From Jaapia argillacea MUCL 33604 (Eukaryota; Basidiomycota; Agaricomycetes; Jaapiales; Jaapiaceae), in the NCBI GenBank assembly GCA_000697665.1, contig KL197729.1, positions 91,375 to 155,374 on the forward strand: a stretch of DNA of 64,000 nt, read 5' to 3'. Positions 5,797-30,018 of this stretch are shown here, in pieces. The position numbers and the translations under genes are program-made. The notes under the pieces are model-generated. The model searched no databases, was not told the DNA's origin, and was given only the letters and a program-made list of their open reading frames with translations. The stretch's first letter is position 1; each line of letters begins with the position of its first letter.

Positions 5797-6057
5797 GTGG
5801 CTGTGCGCAAGATGCTGGGGACAGCCAATCAACGCGTGAGTTTGATCTCCCCAACGTCGCGAAACGCAGATCCGCCCACCGCCAACGCAATCACCCCACT
5901 GCCAAACTGGAAACTACTCGATTGGCCGACGCGATTTTTTCGGAACCCCAACAATACATTTCATAGAACCCCTACAACCATCTCAAATTCTCTGGCCTTC
6001 GAATTGTCCACTCTCAACTCCCTCCAACCTAAATCGCTCGAGAATGATCGTCTTTGA
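5797..6057 (+). repeat. Q block: dispersed sequence with conserved reading frame
   Basis: This sequence recurs at 36070-36330 (+), in inverted form within 1-530, and in shortened form near 9340, 22425 and 32165. In three copies the same frame stays open. It shares the pattern NHRVSL or NQRVSL, then PTSRN, then ADPPT-NAITPLP-W-DWPTR. I do not know the protein. It may be a fragment of a repeated gene or simply a repeat that happens to be open. Confidence 0.45.
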
Positions 6058-7200: not shown

Positions 7201-8600
7201 TCAAGTTCTACACCATTATGAGCAACCAGTCACTTTCCGATCAACCAACCAACCAACCGTCTGTCGATCCAAACTCTAATATCCCCCTCACATACCCATA
7301 CCTTAGGCCCTTGCTTATCGTGTCAGTACCATACCCACCGACGTTATAAGCAAAAAATGTTGGCGTTCGGCGACATTCTTTGGGTCTTTGGGGACGGATG
7401 GGTTTTCTCTGTGTGTTGTAGCGGATAGCGATCAATCGCCGAGGGTTAGCTTGGTACTTATGAAGGGGAAATACGAGTCGACGTACGGATTATCGACGTA
7501 TATCGATTGATCCAGTAAGTACCATTCCATCGCCTATCGAAAGACAGCCCGGGTCTTTTGTTGTCTTTTTGAGTCCTCAATCGATGAGGGGAAAGCAAAA
7601 ATGGTTCGTTCGTCGTTCACTCCTCAGTTTTTACTTCTCTCCATCATCCATCTGGATAATTTTTTCAGGTGTTGATATCTCTTATCAGGTCCTCGCTTTC
7701 AGTCGTCTTGGAGTGTATGGTACCCAAGTGGGTGTTTCGTATCCCGCTTCGTGTCGCTTGAACAAAATACCAACGTCAAACTTGGAATGAAGACAGCCAG
7801 TAACTCACTCGCCGTTCTCAATGGAATAGCACTGCTGGGAAGTCCTCATCTCAGTAGACGAAGATTTCTCAGAGGTGATTTTCTTTTCGAACGGCGAAAT
7901 AGATGAGTCGGCGTGTGCGATTCGTATTTTTTATGCCTGATCCTGTTTATTTTCGTTTTGTTTTGTGGGCCATCTCTTTACTCCTTTTAGGTTCTCAACC
8001 CCCCGTCGAAGATCTAAAGGCTCACAACCCGCATCACTACCCAGCCCAACTCAACGATTCATCCCCTCCTCAACATAAAATTCACCTCTTACCTTGCGCC
8101 ATCGCTTACCTCTAGATGCAGCTGCGATGGGGTCAAAAGCCCAACATACCGCTCAAGGACTCCCTCCCCCCTCGTTGAACGCCGGCATCGGCGTGTACGG
8201 TATGACCCTCCCTCCTTACTATCTGATTGCTGAACTGAAGACGTCCCATCCCAAAAGTGCAAACCATCTCATCGGTAGTTCGCCTTCCACATGCGGAGCC
8301 TGCTCCTTCGATGTTGCGATACTATTATCACGTCTAGTGTCCCCGCGGCTATCCTCATAATGAATTTTTTTGGTATCTCAGTAGAGGGTCCTCTGGGTCC
8401 TCTGGGATGACGACCTGTTCGACGATGACGGGCAATAAGTCTTGGTACGCGCCAACCGTTGTGCGAGTTCTGGTGTTTATCTTAGGTTTAGTACACTTTC
8501 TAGTCGGCAGAGCACTTGTCCTTGTGAAGATAATAGTTATGGCAGTTTAATTTTCATTGGGTGCACCACTGTTAAGCGTATTTGAATTTCTTCTGTTGAG
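7201..8600 (+). other. S block and start of T block, no gene called
   Basis: The region is repeated at 30208-31440 and, in part, at 37090-38030. A CCAACCAACCAACC tetranucleotide run lies near 7240. Several intron-like GT...CTTTTAG stretches are present, for example before 7990. The reading frames are not preserved between copies well enough to call a gene. Confidence 0.4.
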
Positions 8601-8689
8601 ATCCTTGCGACTCATAGTACCTTCCGGTAAGTTCTCGCCTTCTACTATCTTCCCCGCCTCTCACCCCATCTTCAAACTAGTCCTCAACC

Positions 8690-9085
8690 CCATTGACTAG
8701 CACTCATCCAACTACCACGATAACATCCTCTGATTCAGCTTTTTCTTCATCTCAGTCTTCTTCCTCGTCATCGACCGGTTCTAGCAGTCACCGCGTCTAC
8801 CAAGTCCACACTTTAACTCAAACAAGATGCAAAAGCCGCGGGGAAGAAGTACTTGGTACCGCTGCAGACAATTCGGAGCTCAATGATACGACCAATGCGG
8901 AAATTCTGTATGATAATACCGAGTCTGGGCAGCTCACGTATTTCCATGGTCGCCCTTTCCAAACTCATGGTCTAGGATGCTACCGAACCCACACAAGGAG
9001 CCTTTACCTTGGCCAAACTGTGATGCCATCGCTGAATGACGCTGAATGGATGAGTCCACGTATTCTTCTCCCCGTACTTTCATGA
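8690..9085 (+). CDS. Ser-rich candidate exon T (partial, uncharacterised)
   Basis: The open frame begins after an intron-like segment (GTAAGTTCTC at about 8630 to a GACTAG acceptor at 8690-8699) and runs 130 codons to a stop at 9085. The N-terminal third is a Ser/Thr-rich tract. The rest is ordinary mixed sequence ending in WMSPRILLPVLS. The paralogous sequence at about 31527-31913 encodes the same residues with mostly conservative changes, apart from one inserted base. That suggests the frame was once coding. Upstream exons are uncertain, as is the true start. I do not recognise the product. Confidence 0.4.
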   Translation, partial: PLTSTHPTTTITSSDSAFSSSQSSSSSSTGSSSHRVYQVHTLTQTRCKSRGEEVLGTAADNSELNDTTNAEILYDNTESGQLTYFHGRPFQTHGLGCYRTHTRSLYLGQTVMPSLNDAEWMSPRILLPVLS

Positions 9086-10430
9086 CCGTTCCTGCTTTCC
9101 CTTCGTAGTTCGTTTGGTTTCGTTTGGTGACTCATCCCATGGCGCCATCCCTTTTTTGTGGTTTTGCTACTGCATTTGACGTTCTGAACTTATCAGGCTC
9201 CCCTTCGCAATACAAGTCAGGTAAGTTGAAGACATTCGTGGATGCCTTCTGATTTTGTCTCGGACCGTTATGACCTCTGACGAGCATGACTTTCGTGATC
9301 TCTTACCAGGATGGACTAGCTGGCTCCTACGCTGTAGGCGACAGCCAATCACCGTGTCAGCTTGGACACCCACTCGATTGACGCGACTCGTTCGCGGCAT
9401 CAAGAGTGCACATCTCGTGGAAACGCAGTCAGTCTCCTCACGCACCTAACCGTTCTCTTGTAAACCCCTCTAACTTTCAAGTTAGGCCTCCATCAGACTG
9501 CCAAAACCGTCATTAGGTTCAGAAAGATCGAGCTCGAGAGACGGCGTATTGGCTTGGAGTCCTGTATTGATTTGCCAATCCACATCATATTCAAAAATTC
9601 ATGAGAATTTATTGTTCAAGTATAACTACTTTATGAACGCGGAGAGACGAGATCGAAAGTGAGCAAGAATTACCTGCGAAGATCAGAGATATCTGCGGTG
9701 ATCACACCGTTGGTGGTAACTGACCGATAATTATGGCGGGAGGTTTTTCCTGATGCAGTGGCATGTTTGGCCGTTGCTCTGGTTGTAATCTGTGGGTACT
9801 CACAACGGTCGGCGTGGATGCCAGTGGTGTACTGCCAGTGGTGAGTGGACTCGTGGTGTTCTCTACTGACTCACTTGTGATGTCGGGAGAGGCGGTGTGA
9901 AAGTATTAGTGGTTTGAATACCGACTCGACCGAGAGAAATGAGTACAAGATATGGGTTATTTATATTAGCTACGTGACCGATTCGGAGCAGCAGCGCAGA
10001 TAAAGGAAAGAACATATAAAGAACTGCACAGGAGGGGTAGTACATGAATCTCGAGGTAATTATGTCAAGTAGGAATCATGAAAAGAGTAAACGGATCTCG
10101 GGAGGTACAAAGATTGGATAGAGTGGCTTCTTATGCGTGTTAATGAGTGAAGATGTGACATGGGTGTCATGGTTGCTACCCTTGGTACCCTTAGCTTAAG
10201 CGCGATGCGATTGATTGGGTGGACTGTGATCAAGAGGGCCTCGCAGTTCTAGCAGAGGTCATCATCCTGGCAACCCAGGCACATCGACTGAAAATTGGAA
10301 TAAGTTTGAAGGATAAGACGAGGAAGTCAAGGAACAAACAATTTATGGGGCTTTAGCTCTCCATCCGAGGAACGTCGAGGAACTCCACGACCCCCAGCCT
10401 AAATGTAAACGCGAATTTGGTTAGTGATAT
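9086..10430. other. T/U blocks and ZZ-finger remnant downstream of gene V
   Basis: The region is collinear with 31914-33236 in unit 2. A shortened Q-like segment lies at about 9340-9450. On the minus strand between about 10150 and 10270 lies the ZZ-type zinc-finger exon of gene V, here disabled by a TAG codon at 10249-10251 within the Cys-rich motif. No other gene is apparent. Confidence 0.5.
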
Positions 10431-11129
10431 TCACAGCACTTGGAAACAATCAGAATTCCGTACCAGATCATCAACGCCAAACGTGACACACCCGGAGGGA
10501 ACGAAGTGTTCTACAGCTGGAGCCAAGATACTGGCTCCTGTATAGACTCCGATCGCATGAGCAGCAGAGAGATTATCCGTCGCACTAGGTGCAACAAAGG
10601 GATGGCCTTGTATAAACCCATCACCAGTTCCGGATATTGCTTGACCGAGCGCAGAGACACTGGAAGTGCCCACTGAGTTTCCTTGGACCCCCTCGGTTAG
10701 AAGCTGATGAGTGCCGGTGCTTGACGCAGCACTGACAGCTTCGATACCGCCATGAAGATAAGCGGTGTCAACACCGCCTCCAACGAGCAAACTGAGAGCC
10801 CCAAAGACCATAGGCACTACAGTATCTTGGATACAGTGTTCAGGGCTGCTGTGTCCCCGACGAGACCACTCTTGCTCGAGGACCTGAAGTTTTTGACTGG
10901 CAACGCTGAGCTTGCGATTCCCATACACAACCGAGGCGGCTACGCTAAGACCGTGAGTGACGACGGCGGCGGCGGCGGCTCCCGCACCAAGACTCATGGA
11001 TGAGGATGTCTCTTGGCACCGCTTCTTGTAGATGCTAGCGAGAATCTCCTCGTCAGACCGTTGACGAATTTGCTTGCGGTATTCGTCAGCGTCGAATTGA
11101 AGAAGCTGAGACGCAGTGGGCATGTTCAA
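10431..11129 (-). pseudogene. Gene V: Gly/Ala-rich protein, ZZ-finger exon lost (paralogue of V')
   Basis: The first exon is open for 232 codons. It has a hydrophilic start (residues 1-45), an Ala/Gly-rich segment, a Leu/Gln-rich segment around EWSRRGH, then long Ala/Ser/Gly-rich stretches that could be membrane-associated. The paralogue V' at 33241-33956 has the same design, with a five-residue VAVVG segment that is missing here. By comparison with V', the exon should splice on to a second exon of 52 bases and then to a ZZ-type zinc finger. In this copy the second donor reads AT instead of GT at 10346, and the finger contains a stop. The N-terminal part might still be expressed as a short protein ending near 10431. 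The function is unknown. Confidence 0.55.
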
Positions 11130-12333
11130 GCGACGACGATTGTTTCGTAAAAAATGGAGGATGAGAAAGGATGTTCAGAGGGGCCGTTCTGCCAGTGGGG
11201 TGTCGGAGGAGCGGCTCAGATGAGGCTTATATCCCAGAGGCCAAAGCACAGCAGTTGTATCAAAGGCGATACCTTGGTGCAAACAACAAACACCAATTGG
11301 AAGCAATCAAACTGTTTCCACAATTGTTGGGCGTCACAGCGGGGCCTGGGGTGTTGCCAGACATCAGGAGACAAGATCGGCGGAAGAAGCACGATAAGCG
11401 GCTTTTGTGTGCGAGTTGCAAGTCTACCGTTAGTGTTTGTCGATAAACGGAAGGGAATACATAGCTTGAGTTGCGCTCTCCCTGGCAGGGGAAATTTGAA
11501 AGTTGGAGGCGTGCAGTGACTCGTGGCATGTGATGCCGAGAGGCCAAACATATCCTTTTCGCTGAGCCAGAGCTCTGGATCCCGGGCCTGTCCTTACCAG
11601 TCTAACAAGACGTCCTCGCTACAGTGACTTGTGAAATTATACTGGATATAGCGCCGGTCTCGTGCATGCTATGGTCAGGCAGGACGTTGTTAACTCTACG
11701 CCGGTGGCGTGGTCACGGTTGCGAAGGGAATGTGGCGATTGTACTCAAAGCTGAAGGGCAGTGAGCGTTGATAATGGCAGATAATTCTCCCAGGGAGAAA
11801 CGAGGGCAGCACAGACTTGGGCCGACTTGTGGCTAGCTCTGGGGCGACAGAAAGACACCGAATGATAAGAATGAATTGAGTCTGAGAGAGCAAGTGATAT
11901 GAGACGCCAAGACAATGGCAAGACCGAGGATATTGGACGGGCCACAGACCATACAACAACCCAGATAATGATTATGTGACAGGTTGCCAAGGACGGCCAA
12001 TCAACGGTGCTGCAGCAGAGTTGAGCTTATTGTGATCCCTCCAGCGTCTATCAACCGTCTTCCGTCTCATCAACTAACTACATCCGTCAACAATGTTCGA
12101 TTCGGGCCAGAGGGTTTGGGTTTGGGGTGTTGCTGAGCTGTTAGGGTTGATCCATCTTTGAGGGAGCATGTGGAAGTTTGGACCAATCCTGGGTACTAAA
12201 TTGTACACGAGGTCTGCCTCAGTTCCTCCAAACACGTCCCATCGAAATCACAACATTAGTATTTCGTCGAACGACCCTACTTCCTCCCCTCACCCATATT
12301 CTCATAACCACTCAATTGCACTTTGTAACTTCC
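11130..12333. other. W block, upstream of gene V
   Basis: The region is collinear with 33957-35187. Overlapping ORFs on both strands (about 11154-11519 and 11216-11551) are preserved in both copies, but neither strand looks clearly coding. This is probably the promoter and upstream region of gene V. The block ends at the CACTA-type insertion point. Confidence 0.45.
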
Positions 12334-12384
12334 CACTACGGGAAGTAATAGCATTTATTTTGAGTGTCATCGTCACTCCTTCTC

Positions 12385-12600
12385 GTAAAAAAAGTGCTAT
12401 GTACACTGGTTCGGACAACACGCAAAAAGAGTGCCTCTACGAAAACAGCCCAAGGCACTGAGAAAAAAGTTTCAGAGCGGAAAAAGTGCTTAGGCCACTG
12501 GCAACAAAAGTGCCCATGGCACGCATCAACGAGTCGGTTATTTGGAGTGCGCCAGACACTCAAAAGCCCAAGAGTGGCAACTTTCTCGACAAATGGAGAT
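12385..12600. repeat. Left subterminal repeat array of the CACTA element
   Basis: Short motifs of the type AAGTGC, GAGTGCC and their reverse GGCACT recur about ten times in ~200 bases, in both orientations. Such arrays bind the transposase in known CACTA elements. That role here is inferred. Confidence 0.6.
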
Positions 12601-14312
12601 GATTTAGGGTACAAAGGTAGGTGAGCACCAGCACAGCAAACAGATGATCGCGACGGTTCCACGTCAGCCACACGAATGAGAGAAATAGGACTGCAGAGAT
12701 CAAAGCATACGGGGGACGGGGCAGCAGGGACCATAGACAACATCCAGGAGGATTGATTGAAACGAATGTCACGGGGCATGTAGAAAGCTTGAGACCAGGA
12801 CAAATAGGAGGAAAACCATGAGCATTGGGAAGTTTGGACAAGGATCGTCGAATGAGTTGGGCGATAGTATAACTACTTGATCGAGAGCGGGGTGGCAGTG
12901 TTGGAAGATGGGTTGGAGTCGAGGGGTGAGCGTTGGAAAGTTGGGTCTGCATGAAGTTCGTCGAGAGAGTTGGACGATAGTAAGGCTACTTGATCGAGAG
13001 CGAGGTAGCGGTGTTGCGAGTGTGGGTTGTCATATCTTGTAGTCAAGTAGCTAAATACAATGGTATGAGAGTGCTCCAGACTAAAGCAACAACAAGGAAA
13101 AACTCACGTTTCGGCTGCTGCAGTGAGTACTAGTTGGGTCACCTGTATTCGCGATCTGGAACGTGATTCGATGAGTGGTTTGAAGTAGTCAAAGGGAACC
13201 TTGATACGGTGCACCAGTTGATCTTTCCCGTCTCCGAAACCTTTCTTCTTCTTGGCGCTGGTGCTGGCTTTGGTTTCGGTTCCTTCTTTGTTGGGGCGAC
13301 AGGTGATGAAAATTTGTCAGCAAGGTGATATTACCGTGATAAACAGATGTCGGGAAGGTCAAGACAGACATACCTTTGGGAAATCAGCAAGGGACGCCTC
13401 CTTGACATTAGATTTTGAAATGTCCCTGGATTTCTGGAAGGTAAATTGGTTAGCTGAGAACGGTCGTGGGATGGGATTTCAGTAACCTACTCCGTAGCCA
13501 CGGTAGCATCGACGGAGTCTCGGATCAAGTATGCATGAGCGAACATATTGCTGACATTTGGAATCATTGGTGAGCCCCTGGTTTCTTCTGTCCTAGACCC
13601 CTATGGGATGGAGGGATTGGGAAATCTTGTCATTCTTGAGCCTACAGGTTAGTAGCACAACAAATTTCACATACCGATATAGACCCAACCATCGCCTCCT
13701 CATGACAATTGTTCCTGCTGTGCGGCCAGCTTGTTCTGAATCTGAGGGTTTCTTGAGGGTTTCCTGGATCACAGCTTCGACAGCCATTGCTCTGCCGTAA
13801 GGCACCCTGGGAGGCTGGGAGTGTCATGCCTATAGCCCTATTTCCATGAGATGAGATAAAGTTAGTGTGGTGCATGTATGTAAATACAAGATATATGTGC
13901 ATATATGCATTGATATATCTGTTGACACATCTATCCACCATGACAAGGCAGAGAGTACGTACCCGTAGCTGGTTGGATCAGTCAGCATCGTCAGTCCGAT
14001 CCATCACATCTTGTGGGTAGTAATTGGAAGTTCTTTTTTCGTGAGCGTTTTAGTGGTAGCTTTGATACATTTATCCTCACCACATACAGAGTTTGAAGGT
14101 TCTGATGTCAGCATAGTAGAATTGGGATGTGATGCACTGATGGCCAGGATGGCCATCAAACGAGTTTCCGAGAAGAAGACCTTGAGGGGGATGACTTGGA
14201 TGGGTAGCTATGAGGCATGCAGACGTTATGGTGTATGGTGTCAGTGCTGCTAATCTAACAGTTCCTTTGAACGCTGCCATCCATCCCCATCCCGTGGTCC
14301 CAGGGCTGGGTC
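12600..14312 (-). other. CACTA interior with possible degenerate exons
   Basis: On the minus strand between about 13800 and 13100, short open segments are separated by intron-like stretches with GT and AG ends. Examples are segments encoding SNMFAHAYLIRDSVDATVA (about 13495-13560), SRDISKSNVKEASLADFPK (about 13375-13437) and KDQLVHRIKVPFDYFKPLI (about 13170-13230). They look like remains of a spliced gene. I do not recognise the protein and cannot say whether it belongs to the transposon or is captured host sequence. An AT-rich stretch lies near 13870-13930. Confidence 0.35.
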
Positions 14313-15439
14313 TAGTGATGTTGAGGGCCTGGCTCAGCTCAATACCTGGGGCTTGGGCTTGGCTTTGGCAGGCTCAGGCTTCACAAATCCCAAGCCTGAG
14401 CCTCAGGCCCCAAAGAGGGCTTGGTCAGGCCAGGCTCAGGCCCAAGCCCAGGCTTGTATGAGATAATGGTGAAAAACTTTGATAGATTCGTCTTGGTGAG
14501 GGTACGGAAGATACAAATGTTGAGAGACTCGCAGAGAGTCGAAGGGGACAGGATTGTTGAGGGGAGAGGAATGACCAAAATGAAGATGTGATTTGAGTCA
14601 CGAGATCTGGGTGTTGGCAAGGTCGACGGACGACGGTGGAAGCTGTGATCGCCTCGATAAGTGGGTCAGATTTGAAAGAGGTTATCACTTCGAGACAAAG
14701 ACAAACCACTCACCTGAGTCACCTCTTGTCTGTCACCGATAGCTCTGAGGCCCTCGTCCATCTTATACACCACAATTACGGCCTCGCACAAGCTCACAGT
14801 TGTTTTTGTTGGCTCGCTAGTGATTTGAAGTGAAGTGTCGGGGGCGGCGTGAGCACTGCGATGCACCTGATGGATGAATAAAAGTAAGGGTTTACAGAAA
14901 TCCAATCACCGACTTGGAGCGTACCATTCACTTCTGGTCCTATCTCTTAAGCAAAAAAGTTACCTGCGGTTGGATCATCATCACAGGTGACGACAATAAT
15001 CCCGATTGTATCACCCCCTTCGGTTCAAAAGTTCCTGGCCATGTTGGACTGCAGGACCATGACAATAAGTTGACCTCCAAAGCAGGAAAGTGGATAATGG
15101 GTCCCCACCTGTCCCCGCAGTATGATACCGAGGACGTTTGCGACTTGTCACTGTGACATGGCATCACAAACACACCCTCTCCCTATCCAACTTTTGTGCT
15201 GCTTGGGTTCTATGTCCTGCTCATTGAAAACTGAGTACCAGAGTCCACTGGCAGCACCAAATATCTCTCCACTATCCCATCATACAAAGCCTGGGCTCAA
15301 GCCTGAGGCTCAGGCTTTCCACCAACCAAGCCTGAGCCCAAGCTCTATGCAGGCCTCTTATTGGGTCGGGCTTGGCCCAGCTTTTGAGGGTCGGGCTTGG
15401 CTCGGCTTTGGGCTTCAAGCTGAGCCCTCAACATCACTA
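14313..15439. mobile_element. Non-autonomous hAT-type element, 1127 bp
   Basis: Both ends carry the same inverted repeat, TAGTGATGTTGAGGGC. The flanking octamers are GCTGGGTC on the left and GTTGGGTC on the right, an 8-bp target duplication with one C/T difference. Eight-base duplications are diagnostic of hAT elements. Next to each end is a subterminal region dense in CCTGAGCC, AGGCTCAGG and GGGCTTGG motifs in both orientations. No transposase frame is present, so movement would need an enzyme in trans. It lies within the CACTA-type element and is therefore younger than that insertion. Confidence 0.8.
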
Positions 15440-17217
15440 GTTGGGTCCACACTCTTGGGACAGTGGCAGAGTTGGAACAGGGTTGAAGGACGTACATACC
15501 ATGGCCACAGTGGAAGCCAAAGCTAAGAGCTGACCTCCTCCTACTTGTAGATTCGTTGACGAGTCACAGTGGCAATTGAATGTGCAGGCGGTTTTCTGGA
15601 GAGGCGTGTGAATTTGGACTTGCATGAGTTTGCATTGCATCGACGCATCTGTGGTGCAGCTATTGATATTCATTTGGGGTTTGAACTCAATTTAAACTCA
15701 GTCTGCTCCTCCCCACAACATTGTCGTTGTCGTTGTCCAACTTGTCGCTGCACACCCCATCATTGCTGCCTGAAAATAACTTCTCATCCTTGTCAAAGTG
15801 TTGTGGAGAGTCTCATTTGTGTACCCATCACAAAAAAACTGGCCCTGCTCTTATTGCTCATAATTAAGACTCACACACTAACCCAAGGTTTGAAGGAACA
15901 CTCATTGCTCATGCCAATGAGAATGTCATCCAGATAGGCACAAAATTCTTGTAAGACAATGTTCCTGTCGCACCAGATAGTTGGGCTTAAAGCAATGCGC
16001 ATATAGCCTGCTTTGATGGAGGCACCACCTTCTTATGATGTTTTTGTGAGTCGTTCGTGCACTTGCTAACTTAACCTGGTTTGTCATGCTCAACAAAATT
16101 CCACTCAGCCTGGGCACTTGTGCTACAATGTCCCACTTGCTGCCCCTCACCCACCCATTACCCCTTCAACCATCATGTACACACTCCTTACACTACCCTG
16201 GTCACGACCTACACGCTCTCGCCACCCAATGCACTACCCACGCACCCACCCTATATGCACTTCCGTAACCCCACTGCTCCCCATGAACTGCCGCTAACCC
16301 ACACCCCATGGCTACCCTACCTGCGACCAATGCTTCATAAGTTGTTGCACCAGCAAATTTGCCACCCTCACCTGCAACCAAATTTGACCCTCTGGCATCC
16401 GGTGCCAATGTCAAAGCGATCATGAGTTTCCTTCAAGTAAACGTTGTCATCACGCAAGGTGGGTTGTATTTCAATGTCATCGACCCTTGAAATTTATTAT
16501 TGTCACCACAGGTTACTGAGACTTTTCGGACCACTCCCAGCCCAGCATACAATCACAAATACGGATCTATTGGCGCCCCACCCCAGGCCCAAATAGTGCA
16601 CAACCATGAGTGAGACGTGAGTGAGGCCCAACCGAAGAATAGCAGCAGTGAACCATGGGCCAGGGGTCCTATAGACATACAGGTCACTTGAGCTCCCGAC
16701 GAGAAGGTCGTCACCCCCTCCCCGTTATGTGTGCCCTCCTGTTATACACCATATGCCGCACGCTACCCCCATGCTATATGCTACTACCACCCCACTCACC
16801 ACCACGGCCTCCATACGCTCCCCTCTGTGCCTCACGCAACCACCCTACTCATTCCTGTTCTGTCTACATCTACCCTCCACGCTTCACGCCACCCTACACA
16901 CTCTGAAATGCCAAAACTCCCACAAGGGATGAAGCTGGCATTGTGATGTACAGCATCGACAACAACAACGCCCACAATGATGCTGAGGTAAAGGCAACCA
17001 GCTGTCCGAATGAAGTATAGCATTCCCACCACAGTTGGAGGATATCACATGTGGTATCTGCAAACCATGGTGGTAATACTATGCTGTGCTTTGCTATGAC
17101 CGTCCCTAGGCCCCTCACCCTGACTCAACTGCCATCTGTGATTGTGACTTGTTTTCCCTGTCATGTGAGGTCACCCCTTCTCAGATCGTCTCCTGCTGGC
17201 ATGTGATGCTTACCAAA
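15440..17217 (+). other. CACTA interior, degenerate Pro-rich sequence
   Basis: The stretch from about 16080 to 16930 is C-rich and reads as Pro/Thr/His-rich in several frames. Pieces look like old exons on the plus strand: one encoding FDPLASGANVKAIMSFLQ before a GTAAAC donor at about 16437, with an upstream TAA stop in the same frame, and one encoding EAGIVMYSIDNNNAHNDAE before a GTAAAG donor at about 16988. The hAT element at 17218 interrupts it. I do not recognise the gene. Confidence 0.35.
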
Positions 17218-20200
17218 TAGTGTTGCTGTGGTCCGGTTTTGTTCAGTTCAGTGGTGATTTTTTTGAACACAGAACCTGACCCCATATTCGGTTCATGTCT
17301 TAACTAGAACCTTGAATAGAACATCTGTGAACCCGTTCAATAGGTCCAGTTCAAGTTCAGAACATGTTTGGACAGGTTCGAGGTGCACAAACATATATCA
17401 GCAGTAGTAGATTAATTCACACCTCATCAGTGTTTGGTAGCCCTAAGTACTTGAGAATATCGGTAGCCTGATGTGGTGCAGATACTCAGCCATTGCAGTA
17501 TGTGCTTTTGAGGAGCTGCAGAGCCTCAAAGACATCTGGAAGAAGATGATTATGCCGTGCTGCACCCGTGATACCCCCACTCGAGAATGCTTGCTCTGCT
17601 GCAACTGATGAGCCAGGAATTGCAAGGTAGTCCTGTGCCATCCAGGATAGAATAGGGTAGGTCAATATATGATGCTAGTAGCAGAAGCATTGAGCTCGAC
17701 AAAAAAGGATGGAAGGTGATACAACACATACCCCCCACCATCGAACCACCTCGCCATCATCAAGGTCTTCGAGGGGAGCTTCAAGGTATGACTTCAATTC
17801 CTGATAAGGATCCTGGTTTGCAAGGCTAGCAGCTTGATGAGCCTGGACAGCTGATCTCATCCAAGAACTTCCATAACACCCTGCTGTAGGTCTTGCAGTA
17901 GATGGTAAGGGTCTGCAGCCATCTGGAACACATGAACACAAGGAACCGGCGAGGCAGATGACAACTCACCAGATGTTGCAGTATTGACCTCTGCATTGCT
18001 GTGAGCAACAAGGTACTTATTGAACTTGGAACAATAATGTCAGACAACAGCAGGAAACGATCAAAGGATACTTACTCGAGACTCGAGACTTTTCTTCCCA
18101 GCTTCCACCCATTTGGCATCCCACTTATCTACAAAATAGGCCATCTTGATGCTGGGATTCAGCATTTCAAAATCTCATTGTTAGCCAAACCAGGACAATC
18201 GTGAAGTCCAGATGTCGCACCAAGACATATAAAATATGCATCAGAGTTGTCAGTTTTACGATACCACTTCCCTAGATTATCAAGTCCAGCTTGGAGTGAG
18301 GGTTTGATGGTCAAAAACTTGCTTGCCCTTGAGAACCGCTCCCAAGTCTCTTGAAGTAGCTCAAGAACGGGGATGGCCTGCCATAGGGTAGGGTGAGACG
18401 CTGACGAGAATGTTTGATGTGCATTTGAAGGTTCCTAATATCTGGAACATCAGTTGATATTCAGACTTTGAGTTGAAATAGAGACTTACTTGGAGAACTT
18501 CGTGCATGAGTTCCAACTTCTTCCAGTCATCAGAAGAGAGGTGAAAATCATAATATGTTTTCGCTGTGAGGTCCAGGACTTCGTCTGCTGAGTTGGCAAG
18601 TCTTGTAAATTGGTCAACACCCTGAATCCCGTCAGTAACCTCAAAAGCTGTATGCAAACAGGCATACCTTCCGCAACAGAAGGATTCATTCAAGAAACTT
18701 GAATAGAGAGGCCCACTGTGTGTGCACCCATAACAAGAGCTGTAAAACAGGTATGTCAAGATCTTTGCATGTCTTGCGAAAGTATGCTTGGGCCTGAGGA
18801 GATTTCCAGATCTATGGAGATTACAGTTAGTTAACAAAGCAATGACTTCATGTGATGCATGTACCTGGCTAACAAGAGTGAGAGCTTTACCAACAACATC
18901 ACCAACTTCATAATCGTCAGCACCATCATCATTATCAACAGCATCTGTGAGGCCAGCGAGGTACTTGTTCAGTTCGTCGAGGTTGAGGCTTTCACCTCCG
19001 TCACTAGTCCGTGCTTGAGCAAAGGCTGTCTGAATCTTCTTGATCATGGTCTTCTTCATAGTCGGTGAGATATCCTTGATAAAATGCTTGGCACCCAGGT
19101 GAATGGCATGCTCAAGGCACCTATGAAAATAATGCCATAAGTTATGAAAAGCATGAGATCGAACCTCAACAAACTCACATGATTCATCTCTCCTTAGGAT
19201 CCCACCTCTGTTTCATTGGGTCTAATGTTCCCCCAAATGCTCTCACAGCTGTATTGTTGTTAGTTGCATTGTCAGCCATGATCCAACCGACCTTGAGACA
19301 AAGTCAGAATGAGCCAATGCGAGAATGATGTTATATTACCTTTCCTTCGATGCTGTACTCCTTAACTGTCTTTGTAAGGTATGTTGCAATATTCACACCA
19401 CTGTGATTACCCTCGAGATGGGTGAAGGCGAGTTGTTCATTCTTTAGGTCCCACTTGTGAGGCTTGTCCAGAGGAGCATCAATGTATTGGGCATTGATTG
19501 CGATGAACAGGACACCTTCGTTTGTCCAACAATTCCTGTCAAGAGATATCTCTGAAGGAATAGACTGGTAACCAGGGTTGAAAGTCAGGATCAAAGTAGC
19601 GACAAAAGACAAAAGTACTTACCACTAGATGTTCCTTCACTTTGGACTTGACTTCTTCAGCTTGGCAAATGACCTCGCTGCGGATCTTTGTGCAGTGCGG
19701 GATGTCCTTGTTGCTCAACGCCAGACGGACAAACTTGAGGAGCCGTTGAAACAGGCCCTTATCAACAAGCTGAAAAGCCTATAGTTCAAAAGAGAATGAG
19801 ATCTAATCAAGGCATGCAAGAGTGGCTACTGACCTCATCTTTGCACACAACAAATTCAATGATGTGATCTAACAGTCCTTCCTTTGTGTATTGCAGGGCT
19901 CTGGGAACGAGAACACCATCTAGTGTTGACTGAGCCCTGAGACAAAACAATATATTAGTCAATACCTAAGGGACCAGCTATCTGCACGTACAAGGTTCCC
20001 TTCTCTTTGCCACCTGGGATGGCCTGCCAGTTCATTGTAATTCTGGCCTCCCGACATTTGTCCCAATAAATGGGGAAATGATCATTTGGGTTTCTAGTGT
20101 GAAAGAGTGTTGAGTATCTAGCTGAAGAGCTCTGAATGAAACTTACCAAACAATATGGGTACACAACGTCGTAACGTTTCCCAGAAAGAAACTTTTGTTA

Positions 20201-21449
20201 TCGGAATATCCTGCATCTCTGAAGGTGTCCATACCTCAGCAAGGAGGATAGAGTGTGGAAACAAAAGGGAGAACATACTTGCATACACTACACCGCCAAC
20301 CTTCCTCCAGGATATTCGTGTCAGGGTTGGTCCACTTCTCGCATGTAAAAATGACCTTCACATCAGCTGTGTGCCCACTGTTTCATGTGGGAACGCCAGT
20401 CTGTTGAAGCTGAGACATGTTAGTGGGATAGAATACAAGAAAATTGTGTGATACGTACTGCCGCACGATCACCATCGAGTATGGCCTTGAGTTGCTCATA
20501 CTCTTTGTCTCCATTGGCTGCATCCTTCACATGGGATCCATTGCCATCACCTCTGTTGTGCGCTGTATGGTCAGTGATTGCTGTGGAGGTTGTTGGCGTG
20601 CTCTCGGTATTGTCTTGATCCTCCAAGTCCGAGTTGTGGATGGTTGCTGGAGCTGCACGTCATTTTGCTGGGACAGGGTTGTCGTTGTTGTTCTCCACAG
20701 CCTGCTTGTTTGTTGTTGTATGTGGAGATGACTTCTGGGGTTTGGCGTTGTTGTTGGGGTCAGCGATATGAAGAGAGGGTCGTGTCCTTTGTCCAGAGTG
20801 CCGAGAGCCAGCGGCTTTGTTGGCAGGGGTTTTTCCAAGAAGCGATAGGGCGTTTAGAGACTCTGAGACTGAGGAACTTTGTGAGAGTACTTTGGATGGC
20901 CCTGAGATTGGGGTGTCATCATCAGTGTCATTGTAAAAGACAATTTGAGAGGCAGGGAGCAATTGGCCATCAGGTCCCACAGCACAGCCAGCCATGACTC
21001 TGAGAGATACCAGTGTAGAAAAGGGGGAATATTGGAGCCATTTTATACATTGAGGAGAGTGTTGTCGCCAGTCTGCTGGGCAGTCCAAGAACACAACAGT
21101 GAGATGACAGCCTTTGCACTGCTGGCAAGAAGATCATCACTAAATGCCCACTTGGTTGGTAACTTTATCCTTAATTGGGTGATTCTCTGGATAACACTTA
21201 TTCTAACTCAGAACAATAAGACTCCACATCCCGAAGGCTGGTGAAGGCACTCTGAAATGTCATTTCTGGATGGGTTCATGGGGTTCAAATGGGTTCTGAA
21301 CCCATTCAGGAGACCCAACCTTCTGCTGGACCAAGAACAGGACCATGTGTTCGGTCTGGTGATCTACTGGAACTGTGGACTGGACATATGGTCCTGTTTG
21401 GGTTCAGAACATGTTCAAAGTGGTTCAGAACTGAACCACGGCAACACTA
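17218..21449 (-). mobile_element. hAT-family DNA transposon, 4232 bp
   Basis: The left end reads TAGTGTTGCTGTGGTC and the right end, inverted, reads TAGTGTTGCCGTGGTT. The flanking octamers TTACCAAA and TTACCACA form an 8-bp target duplication with one mismatch. Subterminal regions on both sides are rich in GTTCAGAAC and GGTTC motifs. The transposase gene lies inside on the minus strand. Terminal repeats, octamer duplication and transposase together make the family assignment firm. The element sits inside the CACTA-type element. Confidence 0.88.
17486..20995 (-). pseudogene. hAT transposase, multi-exon, damaged
   Basis: Exons on the minus strand give the order expected for hAT transposases of the RICESLEEPER/BED type. 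After an Asn/Asp/Ser-rich N-terminus (about 20995-20460) comes a BED-like zinc finger (Cys-x2-Cys near 20290, GNVTTLCTHI near 20155). Next comes a Thr-Leu-Asp-Gly segment with an EFVVCKDE motif (about 19830-19930) and the RNase-H-like core with HSGVNIATYL (about 19331-19560) and MADNATNN (about 19280). The C-terminal hATC dimerisation region contains WMAQDYLAIPGSSVAAEQAF and ends at 17486. Two lesions are visible: an in-frame TGA at 20660-20662, and Asn where the first catalytic Asp (Asp-x-Trp) is expected near 19540. The protein was probably nuclear and is now likely inactive. Confidence 0.75.
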
Positions 21450-22332
21450 TTACCACATGGCATGCAGGACCCTCAATACCTGGAAGGGTCGAAATTCAGG
21501 ATGGGGTCTTAATCTTCATCTTGAAAATCGGGCCTTCCTATGTACGCACATTAATGTCACTTGAGTTTCCTCAAGTGAAACAGGTCTGTTCATCCTTATT
21601 CCTCACATGACTCTTGCTCAACAGTTTCCATATTTCATCCCTGTCTCAACAAAGTTGAATCATATTGTGCTGGATCTCACTGGAAGCAAGACTCCACTCA
21701 AGTTCGGCCATGTCTTTATAATTGTCTTCAGAGCCCAAGGTTTGAACTCCTCCAGATATTGAGCCCTAACCTAACCACCTCAAAACTCTCAGGTTCAGTT
21801 ATCTGTCGCCTGTGGCCTTCCTCCCAACACTCCCAATATAGCAGGGTTCCCCTCCCCCACTCAGTGATAGGATTTGCTTGGGTGAAAACAGACGGCGTCG
21901 TATGGCCCATGTATTGGACCCATTGTACTTGCAAATAGAGTGTTTTCTTCAATATAATTGACTGCCTAATCCGCTGAGAGAACAAGTGCCAGATGCTATT
22001 CATGAGGAGTGCTGATGACACTTCAAAATGAGCCCCGGACACTACTCATTTCGAGTGCTCAGGACACTACAAAGGAGTACCATAGTTGTTCCTTTTAGAG
22101 GGACGCCTTTGCTCAAAAACAGTGCCCTCCCCTCAAAAAGAAGTGCCATCTGCTCTGGATGTTAAATAGCAATCATGTCCGGTCCAGAGCACACAGCACT
22201 CATCATAAAAGTGTCCAAGGCACTTGTTGTACAAGTGCTATGGGCACTCGTGGGTGCTCCTTTTGAGAGTGGTGGACACTGGTTTTGCCAAGCTTCCATC
22301 ACTCTTTTTCAGTGGACTTACTTCCCATAGTG
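21450..22332. other. CACTA interior, right part, with subterminal array
   Basis: The first 150 bases contain an open plus-strand frame (to about 21610) that may continue the degenerate gene cut by the hAT element. From about 21990 to 22290 there is a dense array of AAGTGCC, GGCACT and GAGTGCT motifs, mirroring the array at the left end. Nothing else is recognisable. Confidence 0.5.
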
Positions 22333-23552
22333 TTTCCAGCTTCCACATGTCACACAGGCACCTGTTGAGGATGTCAATGAGCAATGAGAATGCTCACGGC
22401 TGTGGCTGTACAAATGGCTGCAGGCGACAGCCAATCACCGCATCAGCTTGGCCACCCCAAGTTCCATCTTGGAGGGTGCATATACTGACTCCAAATCCAT
22501 TGCTTGATCTCCAACATCATGTACCAAATCCCTCTTGAGGTGTGCTCCAGCTCCCCATACACCTCCCAACCTAATATTAATCCAGCATTGTGTCGAACAA
22601 CCCCATCTTCTCCACCCTCTTCTCATCGTCACTCACCTTACACCTCTCAGTCTCAAGTCTATGCACCATACCCCTTCACAATGCTACACAATCCCTCCTC
22701 AATTCTACCAACGCCCACTGGCATATAGCTGGTCCTTTCACATACTGAGCACATGATTTTTGTGAGCTGGGCGGTTGGATGGCTAGGTCTGAGATCGAAC
22801 TTCAAGGTAAGCTAATGTCATCCTTACTCGTAGTGAGTGGCAGCTGATACATTTCGTGAAACTGCAGCCAATCTACTCACGCACCAGCACTGTTCTCTTG
22901 TCAACCCCTCTAACTTTCAAGTTAGACCTCCATCAAACTGCCAAAACCGTCCTTAGGGTTCAGAAAGATCAAGCTAGAGAGACAGTGTATTGGCTTGTGG
23001 TGGGGGAAGATGTTGGGTGGCTGTTGTGGTTGCGATTTGGATGGTGGTTATCCATTCTGGAATGTGGCAGCTTGGTGGATGCAGAGGTCTCCTATCAAAT
23101 CACTCATCATGTGTGCCCCAGTTCTCCAGCCAGAGAGCATCCCCAAATACGACCCATCCCAGATCGACTGACCCTACCTTCTCTCCCTGCTCCTCTCATC
23201 ATCACCCCAACCTTGCACCTACTATCACATTACCCCTTCTCAACTATTATTGTTCAGCCAACGTCTATCAACATCCACATTGTTGGTTTTTCACATCGCC
23301 TGAGCACACAGTTGGGTGGTTGGGTATGTTTGACTCATATCCTAGGTAAGCCGCTTTATCCCCTCTTGTCTTGTGCTTTTCCCACCTCATTTTCAACACG
23401 CTCTAGTTGTGCCCTTCATTCATCGATCCCCAATATTCAGTAGGATTTGAGTGCCACTCAGCTCTAGGTCGTCATGATCAACCAGTCACTTTCTGACTAA
23501 CCTACCTACCTACCAACCAACCAACCGTCTGTCCATCCAAAGAGTGTTGATA

Positions 23553-23739
23553 TTGGGATAGCCCCAGCTGGCCCTAGAGCTAGAGTCAAGATGAGATGAT
23601 GATGATTGTCCTGTCACTAATACACTCGTGTCCTATCCTATCCTATATGCTGACTAAGCCTCCCCAAAGGGGGAAATGACCCCTGTATCCTTCCTTATCC
23701 CTCGCATTCTCAGTCTAAGGTGCAGTGTCCACTACTGCA
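23553..23739 (-). repeat. LTR (downstream copy in element orientation)
   Basis: This 187-bp repeat starts with TGCAGTAG in element orientation and ends in CTATCCCAA. It is identical to 30021-30207 except for six transitions. It contains TCCTATCCTATCCTAT on the plus strand. Four extra bases seem to be inserted just beyond the end, where the partner reads directly into the primer-binding site. Confidence 0.85.
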
Positions 23740-23751
23740 TGTGCCCCCTTC
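23740..23751 (-). other. Polypurine tract candidate
   Basis: In element orientation the bases just before the downstream LTR read GAAGGGGGCACA. This is the expected position and composition for the plus-strand primer of an LTR retrotransposon. Confidence 0.6.
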
Positions 23752-23852
23752 GAATTAAGCGATGTCCTTGTCGCTGAGATGATCTCGCTGCAAAGAACTT
23801 TTCCCCTTCCGCTTCCAGAAACTCACTCACTTTCCCAATCCCTTTCTGTTCC

Positions 23853-25475
23853 TCATCCACCACAACCGTCCTCCTCCTCTTCCTCCTCCTGCCTCTTCTT
23901 CCTCTGGCTTTCCTTATCCCCCATATCTTCCTCTTCCTCCATATCTTCCTCTTCCTCCATATCTTCCTCTTCCTCTTCCTTCCACTCTTCCTGCATCTTC
24001 TGCTCCAGGTCCCTCTGCACCTCCACAAGATTTGTACCCTCCCTGGGTATGAATTCCCTGAGCCACCGCACATTGAATTCCCTGTTCAAGGGGACTCCGT
24101 TGAGAGTCTCAAGTCGATACGAGTTTGTTAGCTGCTCTGTGACCCTTCTCAGCACAGACCACTTCAGGAGAAGTTTATGCTTGGTCTTGAAGGTGTAATC
24201 CAGATCACTATGGTAGACTTGAACTAGTTGGCCTTTGGTGAAGATGACTTCCCCCTTGCTCAAATTTAGCACCTTCCTATCAAACCTCACTTTGTGTTTG
24301 ACAGCATGCATGATGGCAGCCTTGTAACTGTCAAGCCTTTGTTGAGCCACATACACCATCTGCACACTAACATTGGCTGGCTTCAAGACCGAAGTACTGT
24401 CCTTGATGGGAGTTGGTGGTGTGTTGATTACTAAACCCAATAGCAGCTCCTTTGGTGAGAACTTTAGTGCTGGGAGTATGCAAGAGTTAAGGATGCGGAC
24501 TGCCTCGTCCAGATGATCAGGCCAGTTCTTTGGGAGACTCTGCCAACTTTGTTCAGTGTCCGAGTCTTCACTGACATTTGGTGCGCAAAGTCGTTTCAGG
24601 ACGTGCAACAAAAGTTTGTTCGCACCTTCGCAGAGACCATTGATCCATGGCAAATAGGCTGTGATTATGTGGTGTGTTGTGTTCCACTGCTTACAGAAAG
24701 CACAAACTTCCTCATTATTGAAATGCTTTCCACCATTGGTCATGAACGTTTCCGAGGCAATGAATGGGTGGAATATTTGAGAGAGACCATTGACTGTGGT
24801 CTTGCCACTTCCTGCAGTCTTGTATTTGAAGGCCCATAAATTTTGGGAGTAGCAGTCGAGGTAGACACCAAGCGTATCATAACCACCTTTGCCAACTGGG
24901 AGTGAGAGGTAATCGCCAACAAGCAGCTGAAATGCATGGCGCCGTGTGATCGGATTTAGCAATGCATGGAGGTGAGTTCCACTGAAGCTCTTGCACTTCG
25001 GACAGTCTTTGATACCTGCCATGATTGATTCGTCTAGACGGGGGCTGTGAATCCTATCGATGAGCGCCATTTTGATTGTGTCGCAGTGCCAGTGCCCCCC
25101 TTCCAAGTGCTGCTTCCTTGCCAGTTCTACTGCCTCTGCCTTCATAACACACTCTGTCCGCAAGCATGCTCTCATACCCGTTCCCCCATTCACCCTCCAT
25201 AACCTTCCTTCCTCAATCATATACTGGGAGGCCCTGTGCTGTGCACAACGTTGCTCCCATGCATCCTTCCCTTGGTCAAGTTGTGCCAATGCCTCAATGA
25301 CCTCGATGAACAGCGGCTCCTTCTCAAACCTCACCCACAGCGCACTCACCTCTGATGACGCCTCCATGTAAAATACATCATGCACCAGTCCCGACTCTGC
25401 CTCCCAGTCTTCACAAACATCCCATTCACTACCATCACCTGTGATCCTTGGTATCCCCTCCCACATTTGGCTCAA
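23853..25475 (-). pseudogene. Integrase region of the Ty3/gypsy polyprotein
   Basis: The region is open for 540 codons. The N-terminal zinc-binding module is visible as His...His...Cys-Pro-Lys-Cys (about 25110-24985). The catalytic core shows the first Asp in LVGDYLSLP (near 24910) and the Glu in WINGLCEG (near 24640). The second catalytic position, expected Asp-Gly-Gly, reads Asn-Gly-Gly (codon 24735-24737). That change alone should abolish strand transfer. A GPY/F-like C-terminal segment (near 24130-24230) is followed by an unusual acidic tail in which an EEEEDM-type unit is repeated three times (about 23930-24000). Confidence 0.85.
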
Positions 25476-27356
25476 ACCATCTGCAACTACATTGATCCGA
25501 CCTGGGACATGACAAACATCAATGATCTGGTGGGCTAAAATTCCGTCCTGCCATCAGGCATGTGCAGCATTAAGCTTATTGTTCAATAGTATATCTCAAA
25601 GTGCTTGGCAGTCGGTCTTGATCTCAATGGGAAAACCCCATATAATTCCTGAGAATTTGTCAAGCGCAAATTTGAGGGCTACGAATTCCAGCAGGAACAG
25701 CTTGTATTTCTCTTCAGCTCGAGAGGTTCATTTTGAGGCAAATGCGATGGGGTATAATTTCTCGACCGTGCATCCGTTGGGTAAGGTGATTGTAGATCTT
25801 TGTGCTAGAACACCAGCAAAGCCTTCCTTACACCCATCTGTTGTGACAATAAAAGGAGTACCATCCCATTTAGGTCCTCTGAGCACAGGTTCTGATGTGA
25901 GTGCCACTTTGAGTCCTAAAAAGGCCTCGGTGTGTTGTCTCATCCATAAATCACCCAGTTTGTGTGATTGCATAACTCATTGGTAGGTTGCCTTTGAAAA
26001 CTTCAATAGAAGATCAACAGCTCTAATGAGGTCATGAAGGGGTCCTTCTATTTTGGAATACCCCTTGATGAGGTTGCAGAAATGCCCTGTGATGCCGAGG
26101 AATGAGCAAAGATTAAGTGCGTCCTGAGGTTGCCTCCGATCAATGATAGCAGTGAGCTTTGCTAGATCAGGTGTGACTCCTTCAGGTCCAACAGTTGCAC
26201 CTGCAAAAATCCCCTCGGTAACAAAGAACTCTGATTTTGTTGCCGAAAGACACAGTCCCCTCTCCCAAACTCGAGTCAGAATCAACCTGAGTTTCGACAT
26301 CATCTCCTCAAACTCATCAGCAGCAGCTTCTCCATCGTCAACAAAGAGTTTGAGAATGTCTTGAGAGAGTAAATTGTGGAGGTGTATTGCCGTCATGTGC
26401 GCAAAAGTCAATGGGGTGCCAGTGAGGCCAAAAGGCATTTTGGCATACCAGAAATAACCTCGACCCTCAACATAGAACACAGTATATGGTCGAGCGGCTT
26501 CATCAACAGTAACGGCATAGAAACCAGATGCAAAATCGAACAACAAGACCCAGCGGTGACCACCCAGGCATTGTTGCTTTGTGCAAATGTCTCCTTGCAG
26601 CATTGGGGCAATCTCTGTGACTTCATTGATCTTGCCATAGTTCTGGCAGATCCTCCATTTTGGTTCCAACTTCTGGGCTTTGGGCTCTGTTATGATATCC
26701 AGCTGAGGTGGTAAGTCAAAATGAGGTTCAAGTCCATTTTCTACGCATTGGTCATTGATTCGATGCTGTAATTCCTCCAGAGATAGCCCGTTGCCTTCAT
26801 GAGCCTTCTGCGCTAATGTTGTTGGTGAGACACATTTCACTTGGCTGGGTTTGCATGCTTCGATAACCCCAGCAGCTAACATCTTGTCAATCTTCTTGTT
26901 CAGGTACTGCCGCTGCAGTGGTGTTAGCAGGTGCTGGTGGACACGCCGGCTGAATGATGCATTATCTGGGATGTCCAGCTTGTGGACCGCACCTTCCACA
27001 CTGGTAACTTCACTGACTGATAAGGTGAAGCAATCCGCGTGCTCCCGAAGAAGCTCCACAACTTGGCCAAATTGCTCTGTTGATAGATCGGACCCAATCG
27101 TGATAGCTTCCAGCATGGCTTCAATCCAACGGGGATTGAAAGGGTCTGTCTTCCTTGTGTAGATATTGCTATCTGATGTCAGCCCTTTGACAGGTACCTC
27201 CTCACCGTCATCCGAAAAATTGGTGTTTTTGTCATGCGTGATGTAGCAGATAGGCGCTTCAGTCTGTATGTCTGTCTCCATGATATCAGCAGTGGTTACA
27301 ACCGTGGTATCGCCAGCTGGTAAAACTTCCCTCAAGGGGAGTTTGACACTCCCCAC
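25476..27356 (-). pseudogene. Reverse transcriptase and RNase H of the Ty3/gypsy polyprotein
   Basis: The reverse transcriptase motifs are complete: LLFDFASGFYAV for the first catalytic Asp, YAKMPFGLTGTP, and LKLFVDDGEA for the Asp pair (near 26330). The tether and RNase H segment follow (PFIVTTDGCKEGFAGVLAQ near 25810, then TDCQAL near 25600). In-frame TGA codons stand at 25977, 25728, 25596 and 25554 (lowest coordinate of each). The frame is otherwise continuous with protease upstream and integrase downstream. The element once encoded a single polyprotein and can no longer do so. Confidence 0.88.
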
Positions 27357-28320
27357 TTTGCATCCTTGCTTTTCAATTCCTTCAGATCCATTTGTACTTC
27401 TTTCAATCTCCCTTTGTTCTCACCTCGTGGTACTTCACCATTGCCTCCTTCTCACATCACGTCCTCCTGTGATTAGTGCCTTGTTCCTGGTTCTTGTAAT
27501 GATGTTCGGTATAACCAATGCTATTTGGGCTTTTGAGGTGTTAGATGGCTCTAAAGTATCCAGTAAATGGTTGTGGTCAACTCGCCTCGAGGGGGTTGCA
27601 TCAACCCCCCTCAAAATCTCTCACTTTTCGACATCCATCACAAGGGTAGCTCCATCCTTAGGCATTGCATCGCGTTGATGATTTCGGCTCTTCAGAACAG
27701 CCGTACACTTGTCGCCTTTCACGGTAATCTCATCGGCTGCGTAGTCATGGACTGCCCGAAACTTCTGCAAGAGAGGTTTACCAAACAGGAATGACCATCC
27801 TGCACCCTTGAACACCTCAAACTCTCCCCTCACGCACACACCTTCCAACTCAACCTCTCCTTCCCACTTCGTGATCGCCGAAACAACTGTCCCATCAGCC
27901 ATCCTGAGGTGCCTTGTGGAAGGTGACCAGTTTCCGAGTCTGTGCTTCACTTTATGAAAGACTGTTTCACACATTGCCACCACCATAGCTCCGTCGTCGA
28001 ATAGTGCATTCACCCTCACGACTTCTCCATGTAACCCCTTAAGCAGAACCCTATGAATGAAGGGTATGCCGGCTGAATCTCTCGCTTTCCGTCTCACAAT
28101 GCTCTCAAGATCCAAAGAATACACGCCAACGACGTTGATTGGATAAGTTTTCACTGATACATCAGGAACGAACGATTGTTCTACCAGTTCTGCGGGGTAA
28201 GATTGTATGTCCCTAGACAGCACCTCCACATGCCCAGGGACCTCTGAATCCATATCCTCAAACAAAACTAGGGCCATCTGGCTACTCTCTATGCCAACGG
28301 CCCTTCCCCTTTTCCCTGAT
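27357..28320 (-). pseudogene. Aspartic protease region of the Ty3/gypsy polyprotein
   Basis: The frame is open from 28277 to 27621 after a KRGRAVGIESSQ lead-in. The active-site segment reads VNALFDDGAMVVAM, where Asp-Asp-Gly stands in the place of the usual Asp-Ser/Thr-Gly. A second conserved stretch reads FLFGKPLLQKFRAVHDY. TGA codons at 27621, 27435 and 27420 separate it from the reverse transcriptase, all in the same frame. Confidence 0.8.
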
Positions 28321-29981
28321 CGAGGCCCCCCTCGTAATAGTTGTTGTATTCGTCATACTCTTCGAAACCGGGCAATATGAGATTCACCCACACTGCGTTA
28401 CAATGAATGGCTCCTAAATTGTGTCCACAGATCCAACGCCAAGCAGACTCCTTGCCATTCAGCCAGAGCTTGCAGGGAGCGAGACAGTTGTTTGAGGGAT
28501 GCGTGGGTCGCACAGCGATAGCACTCACCAGTGCATACACCTGCCATTCCTGAGCAGAGCAGGTACGGCTTGGCGTGATCAACACGAGTATATTGGCCAT
28601 ACTGACGTGCCCATTCCCTCTTCTGCACCTCGTAAGCAGCAAGTCCGGCTTCAGTGTCAGGGTGGTGAGGGAGCTCATCTAGTCAGGTGCAGAGGACTGC
28701 TTTTTCTGCTTCGGTGGGCTCAGCAGGGTAAGTAGGGGGACCTTGGGTGGTTCAGCGTAATGCAGGCACAGGGCCTGTTGCTTGACGATACAGGGTTATC
28801 TGTGAGATGTTAGGTCGTCTGACAAGATTGTTGGTTAGACGAGATGGGGGGGTTGGGGAGCTCAGGGGATTGAGGGATGTTTGTGCAAGTCTGGTACAGA
28901 TCGTAGCAGTGGGTGACTCGAGAAGTTTGAGGCGCTCTTCCATCAGCTTCACCCTATCCATCTCTCCCTTGATTCTCACTGCTCCGTCCTTGATGTATTT
29001 GATCTCCACATCTTTCACAGCTTGGGTGAAGACAGTCCAGTCGGCCTGGGTCGAGGAAACCTTATCTTTGATAAGGTCAGGTAGATCTCGCCATACAGCT
29101 GCTATGCAGGTCTTGTCTCCACTGATGTTCCCTCCAACCGCAAGTTTCAACACCTTGTCAGCCCACACAATGTGGCTCCAAACCTCCACCCCCGCTACCT
29201 CAACCTTCTTCCCCAAGTCTTCCTTTTTCAACTTTAACACCATCAAGTCCTCGATGTATTCCTCCTCCCCTTTGACAACGGCTTTGACTTCGGGCCATCT
29301 ACACAAGAACGCAGCTTCCAATGTTGTCCACGATACCAAGTCTGTGGCGGGGAGCGCCTTATACCATTGGTTAGCCACACTCGGTGCGTACAGGAAGTGC
29401 TTGAAGACAGACAATCGTTTGGCGTCATCATACTCCATCATGCAGCGGAAGAACGCGCAGATGAAGTTTTTGCTGCTTTCCAGCGAATCGTCGTCGCCCT
29501 TGAAAGGCTCTGGTGTAATGGGAGCCATGTGGGCTCGTCTCGTCTGCAACTGGCTGTGTGGAACGTGGGCCGGTTGTGGAAGTGCAAGTACGATTGCTGG
29601 GATTGGGGCTGACGATGTTGGGGGTGATGACTGGTCGAAAAGGGCGTCGAGGTCGAATGTATCTGGAGTGAGTTCTCGAGATGATAGTGCCGGGGACGTT
29701 GAGAGTGACGAAACGCTCGATGGAGGAAGTGATGATAAGGGGGTTGATAATGTTGTTGAACTCGGGGTGCGAGCCGTAAATCGACCTAGCGCGTTACGGT
29801 TACTGTACCTTCCTCTCGACGTTTCCGTGGCCAGCTTGACTGATGAGCGAGGTGATGGGGTGTTCCTTAGACGTATCGCTGGATAACCAAAGACTAAAGA
29901 CCGGGCGCTTGTAGACCTAAGACGTGTAGACCCAAGACGTGGAGACCTAAGACGTGTAAAGACTGATGAAGCTAGATTCAA
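28289..29981 (-). pseudogene. Gag region of the Ty3/gypsy polyprotein
   Basis: The first 409 codons (29981-28752) contain an Arg/Ser-rich N-terminus, an acidic linker, a retrotransposon Gag core (around FFRCMMEYDDAKRLSVFKHF) and a coiled segment near the end. Two in-frame TGA codons follow at 28752 and 28683. A CCHC zinc knuckle is then split: CYRCATH lies in the main frame and HPSNNC one base over (about 28500-28540). The frame shifts back near 28320, before the protease. So there are two nonsense changes and two compensating frameshifts. Confidence 0.8.
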
Positions 29982-30000
29982 GGCTGTGGATCACGCAAGA

Positions 30001-30018
30001 ATACCACTCTCTTCACCA
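30001..30018 (-). other. Primer-binding site candidate
   Basis: In element orientation the bases right after the upstream LTR read TGGTGAAGAGAGTGGTAT. A start in TGG next to the LTR is expected for pairing with a tRNA 3' end. I cannot name the tRNA. Confidence 0.5.

Follow-up and report, generated by a model that had tools for sequence, protein, structure and literature searches.

Contig C21 of the Jaapia argillacea MUCL 33604 genome (43.7 Mb in 95 contigs) carries, within the 64,000-nucleotide stretch analyzed here (C21:91375-155374, referred to below as the window), a nested element of the CACTA/EnSpm type at positions 12334-22332, to which no strand was assigned. Very probably, a cut-and-paste transposon of the CACTA/EnSpm type with no detectable Tnp2 domain entered a TTCC sequence at the end of one copy of a tandem unit, after the two unit copies had separated, and generated a 4-bp target duplication. 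Two unrelated hAT elements would then have inserted inside it with 8-bp duplications, bringing the element to its present-day length of 9999 bp; a hAT transposase domain was detected in one of them (4.2 kb) and not in the other (1.1 kb). A first-pass annotation of this sequence had described a 10-kb transposon with these boundaries. The boundaries proved correct to the base, and the stated length describes the span; subtraction of the two hAT elements, together with one copy of each hAT target duplication, leaves a CACTA copy of 4624 bp.

The insertion is defined by comparison with an unoccupied paralogous site, which the annotation had located near 35185 and which we place at the junction 35185/35186. 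The left flank of the element (7364-12333, plus strand) is the occupied copy of a duplicated unit, whose unoccupied copy extends over 30209-35187 on the plus strand, the alignment being taken two bases past the junction. The two units are identical in 4571 of 4890 aligned columns (93.5%), with a further 169 gap columns; the BLAST identity, which counts gaps, is 90.9%. At the empty site there is a single TTCC (35182-35185), followed from 35186 by CAGCTTCC. When the two flanks of the element are joined with one 4-bp copy removed, they align across the junction with neither a gap nor an extra base, the nearest disturbance on the left being an 18-base gap 26 bases away. To the right of the junction, 19 of 24 bases match without gaps (binomial p approximately 4e-8), while the next-best plus-strand position in the window matches 16. 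A genome search for the final 234 bases of the left flank yielded two places, both within the window (88% identity). The single TTCC at the empty site fits a duplication of the unit that preceded the arrival of the CACTA element, and an insertion postdating the split of the two unit lineages is well supported by these alignments.

The termini of the element are 15-bp inverted repeats, CACTACGGGAAGTAA at 12334-12348 on the plus strand and CACTATGGGAAGTAA at 22318-22332 as read on the minus strand, and they match at 14 positions, as previously described. The one C/T difference between them does not reflect decay, because the same difference is present between the ends of a related 9761-bp copy on contig C38. 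The two ends start with CACTAC and CACTAT. No match was obtained with a CACTA end pattern of the plant type. We searched the genome with the pattern of the ends described here, allowing C or T at the mismatched position, and obtained 14 exact and 6 one-mismatch places, compared with 8 places for a reversed-pattern control. Thirteen of the 20 places are ends of seven two-ended copies, namely the window copy, the C38 copy and five copies of 2988 to 3424 bp (two on C1 and one each on C9, C15 and C26); the fourteenth end, the right end on C26, has two mismatches and was found separately. Four of these seven copies have CACTG at one end. Three further places are left ends for which no right end was found in partly masked stretches (C1:197521, C4 and C8), one (C60) is the right end of an element that continues past the edge of its contig, and one is a right end accompanied by only about 440 bases of homology (C10). 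The matches on C2 and C66 were rejected as family members, as neither shows homology to the window or C38 copies. The seven two-ended copies share the same ends, which is partly by construction because the copies were found by their ends. In a homology search with the last 220 bases, which recovered 11 right ends including that of the window copy, nine reach the last base.

The short target duplication reported earlier is present as TTCC at 12330-12333 and TTTC at 22333-22336. Taken alone, the window copy fits either a 4-bp duplication at 3 of 4 positions or a 5-bp duplication at 4 of 5. Each of the six other two-ended copies, by comparison, is flanked by a perfect 4-bp duplication (GATT, CAGA, TACA, GAGG, TCAG and TGTT), and none of these six fits a length of 2, 3, 5, 6 or 8 bp. 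We therefore adopted 4 bp for the window copy, given that all six others match at 4 of 4 positions and that this length reproduces the empty site with no change in size. The changed base can be assigned to the right copy, because the empty site reads TTCC.

Immediately inside the terminal repeats lie subterminal regions, at 12349-12633 on the left and 21933-22317 on the right (neither with a strand), that are rich in repeats of the AGTGCC/GGCACT type. Short subterminal repeats in both orientations are a trait of plant CACTA elements. Counting either strand, the window copy has five AGTGC[CT] motifs within its first 300 bases and nine within its last 400; these 14 motifs in the terminal 700 bases compare with a mean of 0.60 and a maximum of 4 in 1000 mononucleotide shuffles. 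The count is 10 to 14 in the terminal 700 bases of all seven copies, which are related and do not constitute independent observations, and the highest shuffled counts are 3 to 5. The interior density is 0.31 to 0.89 per 700 bases in the four copies with readable interiors; the three largely masked copies retain 59 to 205 interior bases, and their densities of 0, 4.1 and 6.8 are not informative. AGTGCC also tops an unbiased ranking of 6-mers by end versus interior.

Both hAT-type elements that the annotation had placed inside the CACTA copy have exact ends and 8-bp target duplications, and the C38 copy provides an empty site for each. The smaller (14313-15439, no strand assigned) is 1127 bp long, with 16-bp inverted ends TAGTGATGTTGAGGGC that are identical at 16 of 16 positions and with no detected transposase. 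It is flanked by GCTGGGTC at 14305-14312 and GTTGGGTC at 15440-15447, and its site is single in C38, where it reads GTCGAGTC. A genome-wide search with this element and its flanks returned 41 stretches, including the element itself and the two C38 empty-site flanks; 16 of them begin at 14312-14314 and 15 end at 15437-15446, seven of the latter exactly at 15439. The closest relative, on C37, is 95% identical. On C35 and C45, an end of the small element lies approximately 240-300 bp away from a PF05699 match, and on C23 such a match has an end on either side. It is because these ends are common to domain-bearing places that we tentatively tie the small element, in which no domain was itself detected, to the hAT superfamily. 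The larger element (17218-21449, minus strand; 4232 bp) has the ends TAGTGTTGC...GCAACACTA, which form an inverted repeat of 26 bases at 85% identity, and contains a hAT C-terminal dimerization domain (PF05699) at 17504-17665 on the minus strand, over the cut-off with E 1.1e-10 and 41.6 bits. Its target duplication consists of TTACCAAA at 17210-17217 and TTACCACA at 21450-21457, and TTACCACA is single in C38. A 283-aa frame at 18361-19212 gave no hAT match and two weak, below-cut-off hits to unrelated families. The two inner elements resemble the hAT superfamily in their 8-bp duplications and short inverted ends, and the large one also in its PF05699 domain; the small one differs in having no detected domain.

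The order proposed in the first-pass annotation was segmental duplication, then CACTA insertion, then the two hAT insertions. The placing of the duplication before the CACTA insertion agrees with the single TTCC at the empty site. The placing of the hAT insertions last is not proven: since C38 carries neither hAT element, both postdate the split of the window copy from C38, which may lie before or after the landing of the CACTA copy at the window site in relation to their entry. Arrival after landing is the simpler reading, and the data fit insertion in place. We regard it as unlikely, though worth weighing, that both hAT elements were already inside the CACTA copy when it landed, the composite having moved as one unit. 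They could have entered after the split from C38 and before landing, and each hAT duplication carries one change, just as the CACTA duplication does. Against this, no other genomic place was found for the left junction of the large hAT element (the right junction was not searched), and apart from the empty-site flanks of C38 no stretch found with the small one crosses a junction by more than 10 bases; this counts weakly, as the donor may have left no copy.

Decidedly less probable is that the duplication is younger than the insertion, with unit 2 derived from an empty allele through unequal exchange between homologues with and without the element. Such an exchange would yield the same picture at both sites. 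The identity between the units is, moreover, uneven: in blocks of 500 columns it is approximately 90% at the far end and reaches 96% and 98% in the two blocks closest to the insertion; there is a single dip to 91%, and the final 39 columns stand at 92%. This generally higher identity toward the insertion suggests conversion or exchange between the units. The 6.5% mismatch over the unit would, however, be a large allelic difference, although one that is possible in some fungi. It is scarcely credible that the CACTA insertion predates the duplication and that the unit-2 copy was later excised: CACTA elements do move by excision, but this usually leaves part of the duplication behind, whereas the 35185 site, which had to be distinguished from an excision footprint and does not look like one in the joined-flank alignment, has one TTCC with no base added or lost and would require perfect restoration.

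Several observations weigh against the preferred history of a CACTA insertion after unit separation followed by two hAT insertions. The homology to the right of the empty site covers only 21-24 bases, and beyond it nothing next to the element corresponds to a stretch of approximately 850 bp (35220-36064). Further on, a match of 65 bases between 22396-22460 and 36064-36127 supports the site weakly because part of it is repeated elsewhere in the window, at two places. All three target duplications are imperfect, the CACTA duplication matching at 3 of 4 positions (or at 4 of 5 under a 5-bp reading) and each hAT duplication at 7 of 8. The CACTA duplication also departs from the usual length, the 3 bp expected of CACTA/EnSpm elements not having been found; we read 4 bp as variation inside the superfamily because the remaining features tested are all present. 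Finally, two of the 11 right ends lack the final six bases ATAGTG as such. At these two (C1:71500-71830 and C1:16760-17090), homology extends to TTACTTCCC and is followed by GTGATC and ACATGG, respectively, which looks like damage and not like a second boundary. Separately, the approximately 850 bp without a counterpart, which begin about 24 bases past the CACTA element on its right side, may mark a deletion adjoining the insertion.

By its ends, the window copy groups with the C38 copy (92% identity over the 5' 105 bases and 91% over the 3' 220); by the 3' end alone it also groups with C60 and C10 (90% each). A second group, again by the ends, consists of the 3-kb copies. We considered whether these had captured a host gene and rejected the idea, because the inner part of the C9 copy is collinear with C1:64489-70332, beyond which lies a right end of the family near C1:71559-71769. 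The approximately 3-kb copies look instead like internal-deletion forms of a longer, second-subfamily element near C1:64.5-71.8 kb, a reading that draws on a single copy of the two 3-kb copies free of masking.

No Tnp2 domain was found in the window copy (C21:103708-113706) in a search that found 13 genomic places, 12 of them over the cut-off; the first-pass annotation had noted neither this nor the 4-bp length of the target duplication. The C38 copy has Tnp2 (PF02992, Transposase_21) at C38:172863-173270 with E 3.5e-14. Its gene region comprises three open stretches in one frame, of which the first (374 aa) includes PF02992, the second gave no match in a Pfam scan, and the third matches DUF4218 below the cut-off. 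Along their lengths, the window and C38 copies are 70% identical over the 5' 1.5 kb, 84% over 15445-17218 and 86% over the last 0.9 kb, with short islands between. Two C38 blocks, of approximately 1.5 and 3.4 kb, have no counterpart in the window copy, and the second of them holds the Tnp2 region; we infer that both were deleted from the window copy rather than gained in C38. The window copy would thereby have lost its transposase through internal deletion, and its movement may have depended on Tnp2 transposase supplied in trans by a relative, for example the C38 copy.

Within the duplicated unit there are paired paralogous minus-strand frames at 10431-11174 (247 aa) and 33237-34001 (254 aa), and a Pfam scan of the 247-aa frame gave no match at E 0.1. 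At the start of unit 2 lies a long terminal repeat (LTR) retrotransposon (23553-30207, minus strand), with a reverse transcriptase (PF00078) over the cut-off, an integrase (PF00665) just below it, and a gene order that looks Ty3-type. Its short LTRs of 187 bp differ at six of 187 positions, all transitions, and no clear target duplication was seen for it. More generally, the window (1-64000) consists of paralogous blocks that have diverged and lie in tandem or inverted arrangement, with pairs such as 5189-5998 with 35489-36281, 53409-55287 with 60355-62251, and 45713-48159, in inverted orientation, with 50895-53023.

CNIRT6, a fungal CACTA element of Cryptococcus neoformans, has a 3-bp duplication and a CACTG end motif (PMC12810828). 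The window family resembles it, and CACTA/EnSpm elements generally, in its CACT-type ends, a Tnp2-type transposase in a coding relative and transposase-less copies, and it has subterminal repeats, as plant CACTA elements do; it differs from CNIRT6 in its 4-bp duplication and in the absence of a detected Tnp2 from the window copy. The duplication is likewise 3 bp in plant CACTA elements (PMC8978399) and in rust-fungus EnSpm families (PMC12730594). In the wider CMCT clade, where ends are mostly CA..TG, duplications range from 2 to 5 bp (PMC12730594), and the 4 bp of the window family lies within that range. As described there, the ends of Plavaka elements differ from those of the window family, being TGT..ACA with 2 bp in PlavakaA and CATCA..TGATG with 2 or 3 bp in PlavakaB. 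SmTRC1-type animal relatives share the Transposase_21 domain and differ in their CCC-starting ends and in their 2-bp direct repeats, which were reported for 7 of 14 SmTRC1 copies (PMC1636069). Ends, Tnp2 and subterminal repeats agree in assigning the window family to CACTA/EnSpm, as judged from sequence. No 4-bp CACTA/EnSpm duplication was found in print among open-licence full texts, a weak indication that none has been described; where a 4-bp duplication was mentioned it belonged to piggyBac, and texts naming both EnSpm and 4 bp dealt with matters other than EnSpm duplications.

With three nested empty sites resolved to the base in one assembled genome, part of the insertion history can be read without recourse to a second strain. 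For one EnSpm-type family, the termini and the 4-bp length of the target duplication are now fixed, in what is otherwise routine transposon annotation, and the consistency of this 4-bp duplication is a mild surprise in otherwise ordinary transposon biology. Chapaev elements characteristically make a 4-bp duplication. We suggest tentatively, as a possibility and not the likeliest case, that this is a fungal lineage of EnSpm in which the transposase always cuts with a 4-bp stagger, placing it between CACTA with its 3-bp habit and Chapaev with its 4-bp habit. If this is true, duplication length would not cleanly separate these superfamilies.

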